Assembly: GCF_009795845.1 (NCBI RefSeq)
Contig: NZ_WTEX01000017.1
Span: 1-52,119, forward strand
DNA from: Gilliamella sp. Lep-s35
GTDB taxonomy: Bacteria > Pseudomonadota > Gammaproteobacteria > Enterobacterales > Orbaceae
Reading direction: 5' to 3'
DNA: 52,119 nucleotides
Made by a program: the position numbers and the translations under genes. The notes under the pieces were generated by a model that saw only the letters and a list, made by a program, of their open reading frames with translations, did no database searches and was not told the origin of the DNA. Positions 10,294-19,347 of this stretch are shown piece by piece (within the stretch, counting starts at the first letter, position 1; every line of letters begins with the position of its first letter).

Positions 10294-10764
10294 TTATGAT
10301 AAATTAATAATCTCACGACCTTTTTCGCTTATAGCCTGAACGCAAGCAGTACGTTCAAGCGCCAAATAAGTCAAATGAATTTCAAGATCCGCGCTTGGCA
10401 AGATCCCATTTGCTTGCTGTGGCCACTCAATCAAACAAATTGATCGCGAAGAAAAATATTCACGAATCCCCATATACTCTAATTCTTCTGGATCGCAAAG
10501 CCGATATAAATCAAAATGGTAAACTGAAAAATCATCAAATTGATAGGGTTCAACTAATGTATAAGTTGGACTTTTTACGTTACCTACATGACCTAATTGT
10601 TGCAAAAAACCACGACTAAAAGTTGTTTTACCTGCACCAAGATCGCCAATTAAATAGATAACAATTGTATCATCATGCTTGGACAAATAGTTTAAACATA
10701 GTTTGGCAAGTTTACTACCAAACAAAATTGTTTGTTGCTCATTGCTTAAAATAACTGGTTTCAT
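10294..10764 (-). CDS. tsaE: tRNA threonylcarbamoyladenosine biosynthesis ATPase TsaE
   Basis: P-loop ATPase that works with TsaB and TsaD to make t6A37 on ANN-decoding tRNAs; TsaC, which makes the activated intermediate, is encoded nearby at 11.3 kb. The start MKPVILS gives 156 residues (E. coli 153); an in-frame start 22 codons upstream is unlike the family. Walker [10 protein letters not shown] is at 40-48, PTYTLVEPY and YHFDLYRL follow, and LIEWPQ near 110 is the Walker B-like segment. First gene of the tsaE-amiB-mutL-miaA operon. Its ribosome site is weak. Confidence 0.95.
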
Positions 10765-10840
10765 GATGAATTCTTTGCTCAATAAATAGTTCTTATTATA
10801 TACTAATAACATCAAAGATGTACTAACCAAAATGAGCTTG

Positions 10841-10886
10841 ATTTTGTAAAAAAGTTTCAGGTAATCCTACGTTTCAGTATAAAAAG
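10841..10886 (+). repeat. Dispersed intergenic repeat, copy A
   Basis: Contains AAAAAAGTTTCAGG, then 8 nt, then CGTTTCAGTATAAAAA. The same layout (AAAAGTTTCAGG, 8-9 nt, CGTTT, A-rich end) occurs at three other intergenic places in the window. This copy is between the divergent tsaE and tusB genes and abuts the tusB start. Confidence 0.5.
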
Positions 10887-10894
10887 TGAAAATA

Positions 10895-11176
10895 ATGCTA
10901 CATACTATATCAACAGCAAACCAATCAGCCATAAATCTACAATTAATATCAGATCAAGATGTTGTATTGTTCTGGCAAAATGGCGTTATTCTGGCTATAC
11001 AAAATAACCCATTATTAAATGACATTATAAAAAAAACTAAACACTGTTACGTCATCAACAGCGATATAGAAGCCCGAGGAATAAGAAAAATTATTGATTC
11101 AAGGCTTAAAATTATCAATATGCAACAAGTTGTTGAACTTACAACTAACCATTTTCCACAAATGAACTGGGAATGA
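10895..11176 (+). CDS. tusB: Sulfurtransferase complex subunit TusB
   Basis: Small DsrH-family subunit of the TusBCD heterohexamer, which relays sulfur from TusA to TusE for 2-thiolation of U34 in tRNAs. The canonical N terminus MLHTI and the C terminus QMNWE (QMAW in E. coli) identify it; the middle has NSDIEARGI where E. coli has NEDLIARGL. I chose ATG at 10895 (93 residues, E. coli 95); a GTG three codons earlier is possible. Unusually, it is alone here, while tusC and tusD are at 41.8-42.7 kb. In E. coli the three genes are adjacent. Confidence 0.9.
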   Translation: MLHTISTANQSAINLQLISDQDVVLFWQNGVILAIQNNPLLNDIIKKTKHCYVINSDIEARGIRKIIDSRLKIINMQQVVELTTNHFPQMNWE

Positions 11177-11294
11177 CCATAGGGCATAATACTAAAACTA
11201 CCCAGTTTTAAAAAGCATGAATCATGCAAATTTGCAAAACCTAAAACCTAAGTTTAATATAAATCTCAATTGTACTCAGCTCGTATTCAAATTT

Positions 11295-11858
11295 ATGGCT
11301 AATTTATTAACACTATCGGAAATCAATAATTATTTAAAAAATGGTGAAGTAATTGCTTACCCTACCGAGGCCGTTTTCGGTCTAGGGTGTGATCCTGATT
11401 GTGAATCAGCCGTATTAAAACTGTTACAACTAAAACAGCGCTCAGTAGATAAAGGCTTAATTTTAATTGCCAGCCATTACCAACAATTGATCCCCTATAT
11501 AAATGAATTAGCTATTACTAATGAACAAAAACAGTTAGCACTTACTAACTGGCCTGGTCCTATTACTTGGGTTTTTCCTAAAAATACAAAAACACCTTAT
11601 TTTTTGACTGGTAAATTCGACACCATAGCAGTACGAGTCACCAATCATCCCTTAGTTTGTAAACTATGCGATCTTTATGGCAAACCGATAGTTTCAACCA
11701 GTGCTAATTTATCGAATTATTCTCCTTGTAAAACAGCCATCGAAGTAGCCAAACAATTTGGCCAAAATTTTCCGATTTTAGCAGGCGAAACAGGTAATAG
11801 ATTACAGCCTTCTCAAATCAGAGATATTCAAACAGGTAACATTATTCGACAAGGATAG
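11295..11858 (+). CDS. tsaC: Threonylcarbamoyl-AMP synthase
   Basis: Makes threonylcarbamoyl-AMP from threonine, bicarbonate and ATP, the first step of tRNA t6A37 synthesis. YrdC fold with [15 protein letters not shown] near the N terminus, [16 protein letters not shown] (the KR-S-K-G active-site signature), [11 protein letters not shown] and [12 protein letters not shown]. The start [10 protein letters not shown] gives 187 residues (E. coli 190); an upstream ATG in frame would add 26 residues unlike the family. It ends 4 bp before anmK, so the two are probably co-transcribed. Confidence 0.95.
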
Positions 11859-13773: not shown

Positions 13774-14457
13774 TTACAAATCCAAAATATGTTTAATAAA
13801 AGGGATAGTTAACTTACGTTGTTGCGCTAATGTTGCTACTTCAAACTTTTCTAATAAAGAAAACAGTGTACGCATATCACGATTAACACGTTTTAATAAA
13901 AATAACCCAACTTCTGTTGATAATTCAAACCCACTTAATTGTGCTCTTAATTGTAAAGCTTTAAGCTTATCATCATCACTAAGTTCTTTTAATTGATAAA
14001 CTTGTCCCCAAGATAACCTTGAAACCAAATCAGGTAGTATAAAAGAAATTTGTTTAGGTGGTCTGCTTGCGGTTATCAATAATTTACTTACATTTTTTTC
14101 AGTCAAACGATTAAATAAATCAAAAATTGCCTCTTCCCAATCTCTATGACCTGCTATTGCATCGATATCATCTAAACAAACTAAATCATAATTATCTAAT
14201 CCCTGTAAAATTTCAGGGACTAAATGATAATACTGTTTTAGCGGAATATAACTAGCTAATTTATGTTGGCTTGATGCATGTAAAAGGTGAGTTCGACCCG
14301 CAGCACTAGCCGACCAAATATAAAAGACATTAAAACCTTCTCTACCTAACAAAGTTTGCAATGACTCAAACAGTAATCGATTATCACCGATATAAAAACT
14401 ATCAAAAGTTTCATTATTAGGTAATGAAAAAGGCAAAGGTAGCTGCGAAAGAGTAAT
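13774..14457 (-). CDS. hda: DnaA inactivator Hda
   Basis: AAA+ DnaA homologue that, bound to the DNA-loaded beta clamp, stimulates hydrolysis of DnaA-ATP (RIDA) and so prevents re-initiation. From the proposed ATT start at 14457 it has 227 residues. The clamp-binding motif QLPLPF is at 5-10 (E. coli QLSLPL), the sensor/arginine-finger segment is around LVSRLSWGQVYQL, and the C terminus RKLTIPFIKHILDL is family-typical. A strong GGGAGG (14465-14470) sits 7 nt before the ATT; no ATG or GTG lies at a sensible place. The frame stays open to 14592, but that stretch is AT-rich and not Hda-like. It is directly beside oriC, unlike E. coli, where hda follows uraA. Confidence 0.9.
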   Translation of the reverse strand: MTLSQLPLPFSLPNNETFDSFYIGDNRLLFESLQTLLGREGFNVFYIWSASAAGRTHLLHASSQHKLASYIPLKQYYHLVPEILQGLDNYDLVCLDDIDAIAGHRDWEEAIFDLFNRLTEKNVSKLLITASRPPKQISFILPDLVSRLSWGQVYQLKELSDDDKLKALQLRAQLSGFELSTEVGLFLLKRVNRDMRTLFSLLEKFEVATLAQQRKLTIPFIKHILDL

Positions 14458-14599
14458 AAAATAACCTCCCAATATAAATAAAATTATACTAAGTATAAAT
14501 TTGCTTTTATAAAAATCAATCACTTTTATAGAAAAGAAAAACATCCTACTTTTTAAATCATTTAATATGTATTTTAAGTAGCATAAATACAAGCTAATT

Positions 14600-15157
14600 T
14601 ATCCATTAATAAAGAAAATAAAAATAACTAAATTATTCAGCTAAACAAATAGAATAATTTTAAGCTTTATAAAATTATTTCATGTAAATAATAAGATCAT
14701 AAAAAAGAGTAGATCACTCACCTAAGAGTAAAATAAAAGCAATAAAAGATAAAAATTTAAGCAAATGAATTTATTTTTTGTGGATAACTCTGTGATAAAA
14801 CGAGATCAAAAGTTGTGATAAGCCTATTAATAACCTAAAAAACAAAATCAACTGTGAATAAAAATAGAACTTATCAACAGAATTAAAATAAAAAAGATCC
14901 GATCAATTAACAGAATTAGATGATCAATAAGATCCTATAAAATAATTATAAAAACGAGTTATCAACAAAAAGGATCCACAGTAATAATAATAAAAATAAA
15001 AAGATCATCTAAAAGATCTTATTTTATTTAGATCGCGATCAAAATAGATCATTTGACGTAATCAAAAAGATGAGTAAAATTCCCTACGCTAAATAAACCA
15101 AATCACCCGATCTAAAATAGAGATCACCTGTACACAAAATAAATACGAGGCTTTTTT
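14600..15157. other. oriC: Probable chromosomal replication origin oriC
   Basis: A non-coding AT-rich stretch between hda and mnmG, the usual oriC position in enteric relatives. I count 15 GATC sites between 14695 and 15125. A perfect DnaA box (TTATCCACA on the minus strand) is at 14779-14787. Near-boxes are TTATCAACA at 14871-14879 and 14959-14967 and TTATTCACA (minus) at 14853-14861. AT-rich GATC-bounded segments at 15003-15050 resemble 13-mer unwinding repeats. Gene polarity diverges from here. Origin function is inferred. Confidence 0.88.
14779..14787 (-). promoter_or_regulatory. Consensus DnaA box
   Basis: TGTGGATAA on the plus strand, i.e. TTATCCACA on the minus strand, identical to the high-affinity consensus. 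It lies in the probable oriC, about 320 bp upstream of the proposed hda start. Confidence 0.85.
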
Positions 15158-17050
15158 ATGTTTTATCCAGATCTTTTTGATGTCATCATCGTCGGCGGCG
15201 GCCATGCCGGAACAGAAGCAGCCATGGCATCAGCAAGAATGGGACGAAAAACACTACTTTTAACCCATAATATCAATACATTAGGACAAATGTCTTGCAA
15301 CCCAGCCATTGGCGGTATAGGTAAAGGCCACTTGGTTAAAGAAATTGACGCCATGGGTGGTTTAATGGCTCAAGCTATTGATCATGCAGGGATCCAATTT
15401 AGGATCTTAAACAGTAGCAAAGGTCCTGCTGTTAGGGCTACACGAGCGCAAGCAGATCGATCCCTTTATTGTAAAGCAATTAGAACGGCACTTGAAAACC
15501 AAGAAAACCTTATGTTATTCCAACAATCAGTTGAAGATGTGATCATTGAAAACGATCAGATCATTGGTGTTAAAACCCAAATGGGAGTTTCATTTAAATC
15601 TAAAGCTGTAGTATTAACAACAGGCACATTTTTAGATGGAAAGATCCATATAGGACTTGATAATTATAGCGGTGGACGAACAGGTGATCCAGCTTCGATT
15701 GATTTATCAAAATCATTACACCAATATCCATTTAGAATGGGACGATTAAAAACAGGTACTCCACCCCGTATTGATGGAAGAACAATTGATTTTTCAAAAT
15801 TAGGCACACAATATGGTGATGATCCTGTGCCAGTTTTTTCATTTTTAGGTAATTCAAATGATCATCCAAAACAGATCCCTTGTTATATCACTAGCACAAA
15901 CGAAAAAACACACGATATAATTAGATCTAATTTAGATCGCAGCCCAATGTATACAGGGATCATTGAAGGTGTAGGACCAAGATATTGCCCATCAATCGAA
16001 GATAAGATCATGCGTTTTGCAGATCGTAATTCTCATCAGATCTATTTAGAGCCTGAAGGATTAGATAGCAATGAGATCTACCCAAATGGGATCTCTACAA
16101 GTCTGCCATTTGATACCCAGCTTGCTTTTGTTCGTAGCATGAAAGGGCTCGAAAATGCCAATATCGTTAGACCTGGTTATGCGATTGAATATGATTATTT
16201 TGATCCAAGGGATCTTAAGCCAACACTTGAAAGTAAAGTGATCAAAGGTTTATTTTTAGCTGGGCAAATCAATGGCACAACAGGCTATGAAGAAGCAGCC
16301 GCTCAAGGCATGCTAGCAGGTTTAAATGCAGCTCGTTTTGCGTATGATCAAGATCAATGGCATCCAACACGGGATCAAGCTTACTTAGGTGTACTAGTAG
16401 ATGATCTTTGCACTCTTGGTACTAACGAACCATATCGTATGTTTACTTCACGTGCTGAATATCGTTTAATGTTACGTGAAGATAATGCAGACATTCGTTT
16501 AACGGAAATTGGTCGTAATCTTGGTATGGTAGATGACTATCGTTGGCAGCGTTTTAACGAAAAATTCGAAGCCATTGAGCAAGAAAGAGCACGTCTGCGT
16601 GATATATGGGTTCATCCTCATATAGAAACCATTAACGAAGTCAATGCAGTATTAAGCGCTAATTTAACCAAAGAAGCCAACGGTGAAGAACTACTTAAAC
16701 GGCCTGAAATGAGTTACCAAACTCTAAAATCACTTTCGCTATTTGCTCCTGGATTATCTGATATACAGGCTGCTGAACAGGTTGAAATTCAAGTTAAATA
16801 TGACGGTTATATTAAACTGCAAATTGAAGAAATTGAACGTCAAAAGCGCAATGAAGAAACATTAATCCCGGCACATATTGATTATGCGGAAATATCAGGA
16901 TTATCCAACGAAGTGGTTGCTAAATTAAAACAACATAAACCGGTTTCTATAGGGCAAGCTTCGCGCATATCGGGAATAACGCCTGCTGCCATTTCAATGT
17001 TATTAGTTTATTTAAAAAAGAAAAATTATGTTAAAAAAGAGACTCACTAA
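15158..17050 (+). CDS. mnmG: tRNA uridine 5-carboxymethylaminomethyl modification enzyme MnmG (GidA)
   Basis: FAD protein that with MnmE installs the cmnm5/nm5 group on wobble U34. Its product tRNAs are also the TusBCD/MnmA 2-thiolation targets. It has 630 residues (E. coli 629). The FAD-binding motif [11 protein letters not shown] begins at 12, GGRTGDPAS and [16 protein letters not shown] hold the catalytic Cys-proximal region, and [15 protein letters not shown] is a GidA signature. It sits next to oriC as in E. coli. The first 1.25 kb of the gene is unusually dense in GATC. rsmG starts within its last codons. Confidence 0.98.
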
Positions 17051-17627
17051 TCTAATTGATCAAACAGATCTTTTGATCACTGAATCACAAATAGATCAAT
17101 TGATCCATTACGTTGAAATGCTTAATAAATGGAATAAAGCTTACAATTTAACAGCTGTACGAGATCCTAATGAAATGTTAGTCAAACATATTATGGATAG
17201 CTTAATGGTATCACCTTATTTAACAGGAAAAACCTTTATTGATGTAGGAACGGGTCCTGGATTACCAGGTGTTCCACTCGCAATTATTAACCCAGATAAA
17301 CAATTTGATCTAGTTGATAGTTTAGGTAAGCGTATTCGTTTTTTAAAGCAGGTTCAGTTTGAATTAAAACTAACAAATATCAACCCAATACAAAGCCGAA
17401 TAGAAGAGTATAACGATAAAAAGTTTGATGGAGTTATTAGCCGAGCTTTTGCCTCTTTGCAAGATATGCTTAATTGGTGTAAGCACCTTCCTGATCAACA
17501 CGGATTTTTTTATGCTTTAAAAGGAAGTGATATAGATCCTATTCCTGAAGGTTTTACGCTTAAACAATATATTAAATTGACTATTCCAGAATTAAATGCT
17601 GAAAGATGTTTAGTTATTATTAAATAA
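17028..17627 (+). CDS. rsmG: 16S rRNA (guanine527-N7)-methyltransferase
   Basis: SAM-dependent methyltransferase making m7G527 in 16S rRNA (the former GidB). It has 199 residues (E. coli 207). The SAM motif [12 protein letters not shown] is at about 70-81, and [10 protein letters not shown] and KG in YALKGSD are family signatures. The ATG overlaps mnmG by 23 bp, so expression is coupled. In E. coli the atp operon follows; here a convergent amidase gene does. Five GATC sites crowd its first 75 bases. Confidence 0.97.
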
Positions 17628-17676
17628 TTTTATACTAACAGCTTATTTAACTTTAAGTATCTTTATAAAATTATTT
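17622..17676. terminator. AT-only bidirectional hairpin between rsmG and amiC
   Basis: Thirteen-base perfect arms AAATAATTTTATA (17622-17634) and TATAAAATTATTT (17664-17676) flank a 29-nt loop and overlap both stop regions. With only A-T pairs it is weak, but its place between convergent genes suits a shared terminator. Confidence 0.4.
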
Positions 17677-18906
17677 TTTACGTTTTTTAATATAATCTTT
17701 GATTCCATCAAAGATCGCCTTTGATACTTGATTTTGAAAAGCAGCTGTTTTTAATTTTTTCTCTTCAGCTGTATTACTAATAAAAGCCGTTTCGACTAAA
17801 ATAGAAGGGATATCAGGTGCTTTTAATACAGCAAAGCCTGCTTTTTCAAGAGACGGCTTATGTAGCTTATTAACTTTTTTCATTCTATTTAAAATTGCAT
17901 TACCAAGTAACACTCCATTACTTAGCGTTGTTTTTTGAACCAAATCTAAAATAGTATTATCTAAATATTTATCACCGCTGCGGCTAACGCCTCCTATTTG
18001 ATCGGCTTCATTTTGTGTTTGCGCTAAATAACTGGCTGCCGAACTACTTGCTCCACCCGTTGATAATGCAAAAACAGATGAACCACCTACAGAACGATTA
18101 GCAAAAGCATCTGCATGAATAGAAATAAACAGATCTGCATGAAGTGATCGGGCTTTAGCAACACGTACTTTTAATGGAATAAATACATCTTCATTACGTG
18201 TCATATAGACTTTTATATTCGGTTCTTTTTTAAGTAAATTATAAGTACGACGCGCAATTTGTAAAACGATATCCTTTTCGCGTGTTTTATTGTAACCAAT
18301 AGCACCTGGATCTTCTCCACCATGGCCAGGATCGAGTACCACAATAACCGGAGCATTTTTATTTTTATTAGTTGTTGATTTTATTTCAGATTGTTTTTTA
18401 TTTAGATCGCCTTTTTTATATTCTTCTAAAAGCGCAAGTAAAGGGTCGTCATCGGTGCTTGAAGCTGGTTTAGAAGGATAAAGATCCATCACTAAGCGAT
18501 GTTTAAATTTTGCTATAGGGGACAAAGTAAAAGTATTAGGTTTTACACCCTGTTTTAATTCGATCAAAATTCTAACAGTTTTTGGGTCACGTTGAGCAAC
18601 ACGTATCGATTTAATATAAGGATCATGCTTTAATACTTTTGAAGAAATACTTTTTAAGATGGGATTTAAATTAATATTGTTAATATCAATAGCGATCCTG
18701 TTAGGATTACTCAATAAAAAGTTTTTATATTTTAAGCTGATATTTGATTCTAAAGTGATTCTTGTATAGGTTGATGATGGCCAAACACGTACAGCGATAA
18801 TTTGTGCCATTGTTGCAGCAAAGCCTATACGAGTGACAGATAATAAACAAGTCGCAATAATACCTTTAACTAATAGGCGCTTTGTAGGACTAAATGTCTT
18901 TGACAT
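17671..18906 (-). CDS. amiC: N-acetylmuramoyl-L-alanine amidase AmiC
   Basis: Periplasmic septal zinc amidase, activated by NlpD in E. coli. From ATG 18906 it has 411 residues (E. coli 417); a GTG five codons upstream is an alternative. Order: signal region, AMIN domain (about 32-145, starting [18 protein letters not shown]), linker, Amidase_3 domain with [35 protein letters not shown] and [10 protein letters not shown]. Similarity to AmiC runs end to end. E. coli AmiC has a twin-arginine signal; here the equivalent is PTKRLLVKG, with Lys-Arg. With AmiB at 9.5 kb, the window has two septal amidases. Confidence 0.94.
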
Positions 18907-19347
18907 ACTTGAGCTAAACACTTTACTTTCTATATGAGTTAGTCGCGAATAATAACATAAAAGATAAAGATCTTAAAAAGAATGATTCTTATCTTCGTCT
19001 ACTTTTTATAAATAACAGATTAATTTTTTTATACTATAGCTAAATTAATATTTAATAAATAATTTTATTTTTTACTTAGCTTAGCATCAAAAATGCGTTT
19101 CATAATAACATAAATAATAAAACGCATAAAAAAAGAATTTAAAAGAGTTATTTTTATATTAAAACGTATAATGTTCCTGAAACTTTTTGATAGAATTTTC
19201 AGAAATTAAAAAAATTATCTAATGCTTTGTATTGTCATTTTTTATTTTATTATAGACCCTACAATAACAAAAGATTACAATATGGCACGCTAAAATCGCG
19301 GATTTAAACCCGTTTTCATTTTAACAATTAATATAGCTGAGTTATTG
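18907..19347. other. Non-coding interval amiC-miaB
   Basis: About 440 bp between divergent genes with no plausible coding frame. It holds an inverted repeat with arms ATGCGTTT (19093-19100) and AAACGCAT (19120-19127) and one copy of the dispersed intergenic repeat on the minus strand (19150-19195). Promoters for both genes should lie here; I could not fix them with confidence. Confidence 0.6.
19150..19195 (-). repeat. Dispersed intergenic repeat, copy B
   Basis: On the minus strand: ATCAAAAAGTTTCAGG, then 9 nt, then CGTTTTAATATAAAAAT. It shares the AAAAAGTTTCAGG core with copies at 10841 and 26702, and the CGTTT block and A-rich end with all three other copies. Confidence 0.5.

Follow-up and report, generated by a model that had tools for sequence, protein, structure and literature searches.

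GATC sites in excess of codon expectation across mnmG in Gilliamella: a putative extended SeqA-binding array beside oriC

The origin of Escherichia coli is kept from firing twice by proteins that read GATC, and the protein known to read GATC clusters at origins is SeqA. In the stretch of DNA analyzed here (52,119 nucleotides from the gut bacterium Gilliamella sp. Lep-s35; the window), GATC sites are dense in an oriC-like region and continue for more than 1 kb into the neighboring gene, mnmG. What maintains these sites in the codons of a housekeeping gene, and why do they stop before the gene ends? The features concerned are as follows; xxG/ATC denotes a GATC formed by a codon ending in G and the Ile codon ATC, with the slash marking the codon boundary.

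13774..14592, reverse strand: hda, the left neighbor of oriC; no GATC; NCBIfam Hda match from residue 48
14695..15157, no strand: oriC-like intergenic region; 15 GATC, AT-rich, DnaA-box-like sites at 14779, 14853, 14871, and 14959
15158..17050, forward strand: mnmG (gidA), 630 amino acids; NCBIfam TIGR00136, 953 bits (cutoff, 525)
15171..15379, no strand: quiet stretch in mnmG, codons 6 to 74; no GATC, xxG/ATC near background
15380..16406, no strand: dense GATC block formed via codon choice, mnmG codons 75 to 416
16407..17057, no strand: GATC-free gap in the last third of mnmG; xxG/ATC at 5 of 373 places across 31 genomes
17028..17627, forward strand: rsmG; five GATC at 17058 to 17105, where enrichment resumes; 151 GATC versus 76.5 expected over 16 genomes
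17671..18921, reverse strand: N-acetylmuramoyl-L-alanine amidase gene (AMIN and Amidase_3, Pfam); 183 GATC versus 126.5 expected over 16 genomes

The origin lies where the sequence-only reading had placed oriC, because the cumulative GC-skew minimum of the window falls at 15307 and four DnaA-box-like sites span positions 14779 to 14967 in a scan with a pattern that we take to be that of the DnaA box. The nearest named mnmG match was 98% identical over 630 residues, which puts the genome near Gilliamella. The name rsmG follows the earlier reading and synteny with E. coli. The listed hda open reading frame (ORF) probably starts some 47 codons too early, because the NCBIfam match begins at residue 48; in E. 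coli, the hda product inactivates DnaA.

A direct count gave 29 GATC starts in positions 15170 to 16404. The next site is at 17058, followed by 17067, 17075, 17094, and 17102 (five in 48 bp at the start of rsmG), so the counts of the sequence-only reading (29, none until 17058, and five in about 50 bp) were exact. The intergenic origin and mnmG together hold 44 GATC in 14695 to 16403, and the best 1,235-bp window starts at 14896 with 34. Elsewhere, in a sample of 272,602 bases (about 11% of the same genome) plus the window outside 14600 to 19000, the densest 1,235-bp stretch had 12 GATC and the mean was 3.4; the sample thus contained no stretch of similar density. Clusters of three GATC numbered 83 genome-wide, against 15 for a reversed-word control, and 16 of the 83 lie within 2.2 kb at 14896 to 17105 (50 of the 83 places were listed, including all of those on this contig). 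Other GATC clusters in the genome include five sites in 70 bp at G000:C19:111270-111339 and one at G000:C16:16576-16829.

Part of this density comes from the protein. Under a null that fixes the protein and draws codons from the usage of 269 sampled genes (83,715 codons), codons 1 to 416 of mnmG carry 28 GATC (the site at 16403 spans codons 416 and 417) versus 11.8 expected (z = 8.6), and codons 417 to 630 carry 0 versus 0.33 expected. The highest z value among the 269 sampled genes was 3.2. Ranked among all 256 tetramers in codons 1 to 416, GATC had the highest excess (28 versus 11.9; z = 8.6); the runner-up, ATCA (z = 4.4), shares ATC with it. Chance and base composition are ruled out by this ranking and by the sample maximum of 12 against 29. 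The protein alone predicts about 9.5 GATC per kb in the first part, so the protein sequence accounts for part of the density there and for most of the lack of sites in the last part. About 16 GATC in the first part are extra, given 28 observed and 11.8 expected.

The sites arise by three routes: GAT/C, which is forced or nearly so where Pro, His, or Gln comes after Asp; xGA/TC; and xxG/ATC, where both codons must be ones seldom used in this AT-rich genome. In the sampled genes of the source genome, the last route was taken at 119 of 4,087 places (2.9%). In the source mnmG it was taken at 12 of 24 places in the first part and 0 of 12 in the last (Fisher P = 0.0025), in 16 Gilliamella genomes at 183 of 395 in codons 1 to 416 and 2 of 192 beyond, and in 31 genomes of the genus at 360 of 771 before the edge and 5 of 373 after it. 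The sequence-only reading had described an abrupt stop at 16404. As a pure edge of selection this had to be corrected, since the last third of the protein offers only 12 xxG/ATC places and no GAT/C places and would hold only 0.33 GATC by expectation. With opportunity accounted for, however, the loss of codon-level selection stands (360 of 771 versus 5 of 373): the edge is real, though it looks starker than it is. At Ile columns invariant in the 31 genomes, xxG/ATC occurred at 8 of 155 places in codons 1 to 74, 321 of 527 in codons 75 to 416, and 2 of 279 in codons 417 to 630, which reveals a second quiet stretch at the 5' end of the gene. Codon identity across the 31 genomes was 0.78 and 0.71 in the two 25-codon bins of the first 50 codons (15158 to 15307) and mostly lower in later bins (0.56 to 0.73, the last four codons excepted); this conserved, nearly GATC-free start perhaps reflects the translation start or an extended origin element.

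Codon usage and expression level could in principle give such a pattern as a by-product, and the protein does set the 9.5 sites per kb noted above. We consider this account extremely improbable. In codons 50 to 400 of 16 Gilliamella genomes, residues that allow a codon ending in G had one in 215 of 362 cases when Ile followed but in 275 of 3,411 when another residue did, and Ile was encoded by ATC in 183 of 216 cases if the preceding base was G, against 21 of 162 for any other base. ATC is thus frequent only after G, and xxG only before Ile, which rules out a general bias toward ATC or toward codons of highly expressed genes; the z value of 8.6 likewise rules out protein sequence plus codon usage as a full account. 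The word GATC is favored, not its codons, and the proposal of the sequence-only reading that selection acts beyond the protein sequence is borne out by this context effect and by the xxG/ATC frequencies (183 of 395 versus 119 of 4,087).

The sites have been both maintained and repeatedly gained. Eight xxG/ATC sites are retained in 14 to 16 of the 16 Gilliamella genomes despite a median difference of 54% at four-fold sites between pairs, and codon identity in the 31 genomes was 0.81 in the 43 columns that hold GATC versus 0.63 in the 458 others. A single parsimony reconstruction over 41 Orbaceae, with ties resolved toward absence at the root, gave 66 gains and 38 losses at 25 sites of the first part and 7 gains and 0 losses at 12 sites of the last part. 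Individual sites turn over, and density is kept. No spacing signal was detected: 15 neighboring gaps were ≤31 bp versus 12.9 expected when 28 of the 43 possible sites were drawn randomly (P = 0.10), R at a helical phase of 10.5 bp was 0.28 versus about 0.19 for random draws (no support for tuning), and first-part occupancy did not cluster around the nearest protein-fixed GATC (rho = -0.27; P = 0.23). Density therefore seems to be the property that is retained.

Conservation in close relatives, which the sequence-only reading had proposed as a check, was found in Gilliamella. The first part of mnmG had z values of 7.1 to 12.0 in 16 of 16 genomes (median, 9.25), and the minimum exceeds the highest value among the 46 SeqA-encoding genomes compared from outside the family (6.2). 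We identified 34 genomes of the same genus; the set of 31 used above comprises the source genome and 30 of these, with G088 (in-frame TAA) and G113 (no match) left out. The mnmG of G088 (G088:C3:15223-17112) is recorded with one in-frame TAA. Strains ESL0727 and ESL0721 (G105 and G106; loci L149 and L150) bear the genus label and were counted as other Orbaceae. The xxG/ATC counts also exclude L058/G118 (gene split over contigs). Within the family, xxG/ATC was high in a second genus, g2 (17 of 31 and 16 of 29), in the two ESL strains (9 of 24 and 19 of 27), and in one genome of g4 (12 of 27); it was low in the genus of Orbus hercynius (4 of 25, 7 of 28, 0 of 28, and 2 of 24) and in Zophobihabitans (3 of 24). 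The Zophobihabitans locus (L145) has 3 GATC in the 500 bp before mnmG and no more than 4 per 500 bp in the left 6 kb, and its origin may lie elsewhere.

The genome encodes the proteins expected of a GATC-reading system, and a search for dam, seqA, and mutH, as the sequence-only reading had suggested, recovered all three. SeqA matched PF17206 and PF03925 above cutoff, i.e., the oligomerization and DNA-binding domains, and fell slightly below the cutoff of its NCBIfam equivalog (181.8 versus 185). Dam matched TIGR00571 with 282.7 bits (cutoff, 114.85) and missed the cutoff of the PRK10904 equivalog (398 versus 441); its gene adjoins damX-like, rpe-like, and gph-like genes (names from our own reading of the ORFs). 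Because MutH is encoded, a dense supply of nicking sites for mismatch repair near the origin has to be weighed, and in phage heteroduplexes fewer GATC sites meant less repair (PMC3306285). According to that paper's title, frameshift rates in E. coli are independent of nearby GATC content (PMC3306285), and mismatch repair would need no array on one side of oriC only. We regard this explanation as very unlikely.

Outside the Orbaceae, enrichment of the first part of mnmG is associated with SeqA. The median z value was 2.3 in 46 SeqA-positive genomes versus 0.3 in 11 SeqA-negative genomes (Mann-Whitney P = 0.00016, a statistic that ignores phylogeny). The comparison leaves out L014 (a Gilliamella metagenome-assembled genome [MAG], 67% complete), L029, L050, and L063 (z = 3.1, 3.9, and 2.3), and L082, an Alkalimonas MAG in which no SeqA was found and whose z value of 2.0 runs counter to our reading; with L082 among the negatives, their median was 0.4 (P = 0.0002). 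For xxG/ATC, the SeqA-negative set of 12 included L082 and the 46 SeqA-positive genomes included E. coli. Having SeqA is not enough for enrichment, since 10 of the 46 SeqA-positive outsiders had z values of <1 and Orbus hercynius encodes SeqA yet has xxG/ATC at only 4 of 25 places.

Around oriC, the excess in Gilliamella is polarized. Rightward, the observed/expected ratios (up to 16 genomes) were 2.45 for mnmG, 1.97 for rsmG, 1.45 for the amidase gene, whose weak enrichment marks the outer end of the gradient, and 1.08 for miaB; leftward, they were 0.27 for hda, 0.93 for a HAD hydrolase gene, and 0.68 for anmK. These genomes are related, and ratios summed over them are not independent tests. 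For hda (7 GATC versus 26.2 expected over 16 genomes), depletion is only suggestive because the median z value per genome was only -1.4; the safe statement is that hda is not enriched. In a 250-bp profile built on mechanically called ORFs, which may include non-gene frames, also over oriC, GATC was high from 0 to 1,250 bp, at background from 1,250 to 1,750 bp, and raised from 1,750 to 2,500 bp and in parts of 2,750 to 3,500 bp; the corresponding profile of other Orbaceae used four of five loci, with L058 left out. Farther left, 3.3 to 4.9 kb from oriC (10294 to 11858), tsaE and tsaC had ratios of 1.62 (9 genomes) and 1.59 (10 genomes), with xxG/ATC near expectation (6 versus 3.8 for tsaC and 4 versus 2.5 for tsaE). 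The array does not explain this excess, and not every nearby excess belongs to the array.

A rearrangement that gave oriC a different left neighbor may account in part for the one-sidedness: hda lies beside oriC in the window and in the two ESL strains, whereas seven other Orbaceae loci have it on the mnmG side, about 4.6 to 6.1 kb away from the start of mnmG. In six of those seven, a polA-like ORF (name read from the ORF start) lies on the left. SeqA-positive genomes outside the family are two-sided (45 of 46 loci met the codon minimum; L072 was dropped): the 500-bp bins left of the mnmG start had ratios of 1.75 and 2.24 and the four bins to the right 1.7, 1.71, 1.44, and 1.41, with smaller rises at -2,500 (1.34), +2,500 (1.27), and +3,000 (1.42). 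In the 11 SeqA-negative genomes, no bin shown exceeded 1.30 and the largest z value was 1.5. The two-sided pattern points to the origin rather than to one operon, and so speaks against the idea that Dam and SeqA act on these sites to couple mnmG and rsmG transcription to the cell cycle. That enrichment lies on the mnmG-rsmG side and returns at the start of rsmG would suit such regulation, but the sites lie deep in coding sequence and a weak excess reaches the oppositely oriented amidase gene. Transcriptional control is, in our judgment, an unlikely purpose of the array.

We therefore turn to the origin itself. Selection for an extended putative SeqA-binding GATC array beside oriC, mainly in mnmG codons 75 to 416, is probably the correct explanation, and under it rsmG and the next gene would also be selected to carry GATC, more weakly than mnmG. 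The sites of the array would be Dam methylated; as the replication fork leaves oriC, the array would become hemimethylated and SeqA would load. E. coli SeqA binding broadly tracks GATC density (PMC3749930), and in vitro SeqA reportedly requires pairs of sites separated by two to three helical turns and binds cooperatively, with mixed evidence for cooperativity in vivo (PMC5145175). The array could then multiply or stabilize SeqA at the adjacent origin; on the mnmG side, this arm may lengthen or strengthen sequestration, the cohesion of sister origins, or both.

A narrower form holds that the array serves mainly the cohesion or segregation of sister origins, with SeqA tethering the new origins, and not the timing of initiation. 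In E. coli, oriC and late-splitting loci bind at least 10-fold more SeqA than the other loci tested, cohesion depends on SeqA, and oriC cohesion falls by about 60% without it (PMC3749930). An extension on one side, away from the DnaA boxes, would also suit a tether better than a block to DnaA. Sequence does not separate timing from cohesion, and we hold the narrower form only tentatively.

The array model does not predict the quiet stretches within the array. One-sidedness, quiet stretches, and the state of dnaA could be joined in a single picture. The dnaA gene of the source genome (L151:2003-3891) has 2 GATC from -500 to +100 and 3 in the gene, with no cluster (one genome, start codon as listed), whereas that of E. 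coli has 9 and 15. In this picture, the origin of the Gilliamella branch would be a one-sided composite in which mnmG also serves as an arm of 1.25 kb that loads SeqA and has quiet stretches at fixed places, a rearranged, GATC-poor hda lies opposite, the dnaA promoter lacks a cluster, and SeqA control is concentrated on the arm. We regard this composite as rather doubtful.

How does the locus compare with known origins? The sequestration region of E. coli oriC has 11 GATC acted on by SeqA and Dam (PMC13337833). The origin in the window resembles it in its clustered GATC (15 sites in oriC), its four DnaA-box-like sites, and its flank of mnmG and rsmG on one side, and the genome likewise encodes Dam and a two-domain SeqA; it differs in the dnaA promoter, an accessory feature, with 2 versus 9 sites. 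In Klebsiella, a GATC peak of ~34 sites/kb at oriC is the highest of the genome and is slowly remethylated (PMC9684165). The highest sampled GATC density in the source genome is also at oriC, but the description of the Klebsiella peak concerns the oriC region and no 1.25-kb extension into mnmG (PMC9684165). The closest precedent is DistAMo (Sobetzko et al. 2016), in which genes flanking oriC were GATC rich beyond codon redundancy only in genomes that encode Dam, and whose authors propose that this may strengthen the binding of SeqA at the origin (PMC4786541). Together with the mild excess in E. coli mnmG codons 1 to 416 (16 GATC versus 10.4 expected; z = 2.4), this contradicts the assumption of the sequence-only reading that enteric enrichment is confined to about 250 bp.

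Gilliamella shares with the DistAMo genomes an encoded Dam and a GATC excess over a synonymous-codon null. It differs in strength, with first-part z values of 7.1 to 12.0 under our own null against mean values of 3.3 and 1.8 for the two oriC neighbors in DistAMo (PMC4786541), the z definitions being different, and in its internal silent gap and its GATC-low left neighbor, hda, so that only one direct neighbor of oriC is enriched. Enrichment of both neighbors is a group average in DistAMo, not required of each genome, and we class Gilliamella as a variant. The DistAMo main text (PMC4786541) contains none of the names Gilliamella, Frischella, Orbus, and Orbales, and no Orbaceae case was among the papers listed in our literature searches, where the one entry that combines Gilliamella, oriC, and GATC concerns Francisella.

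The kind of phenomenon is thus already known from Dam-positive gammaproteobacteria, where it is weaker; what is new is its strength, its near one-sidedness, the silent gap, and its restriction to part of the Orbaceae. Given this prior art, the finding is a strong, polarized lineage variant of a known phenomenon. It provides a strong natural case in which the position of an unrelated housekeeping gene has exposed its codons to DNA-level selection.
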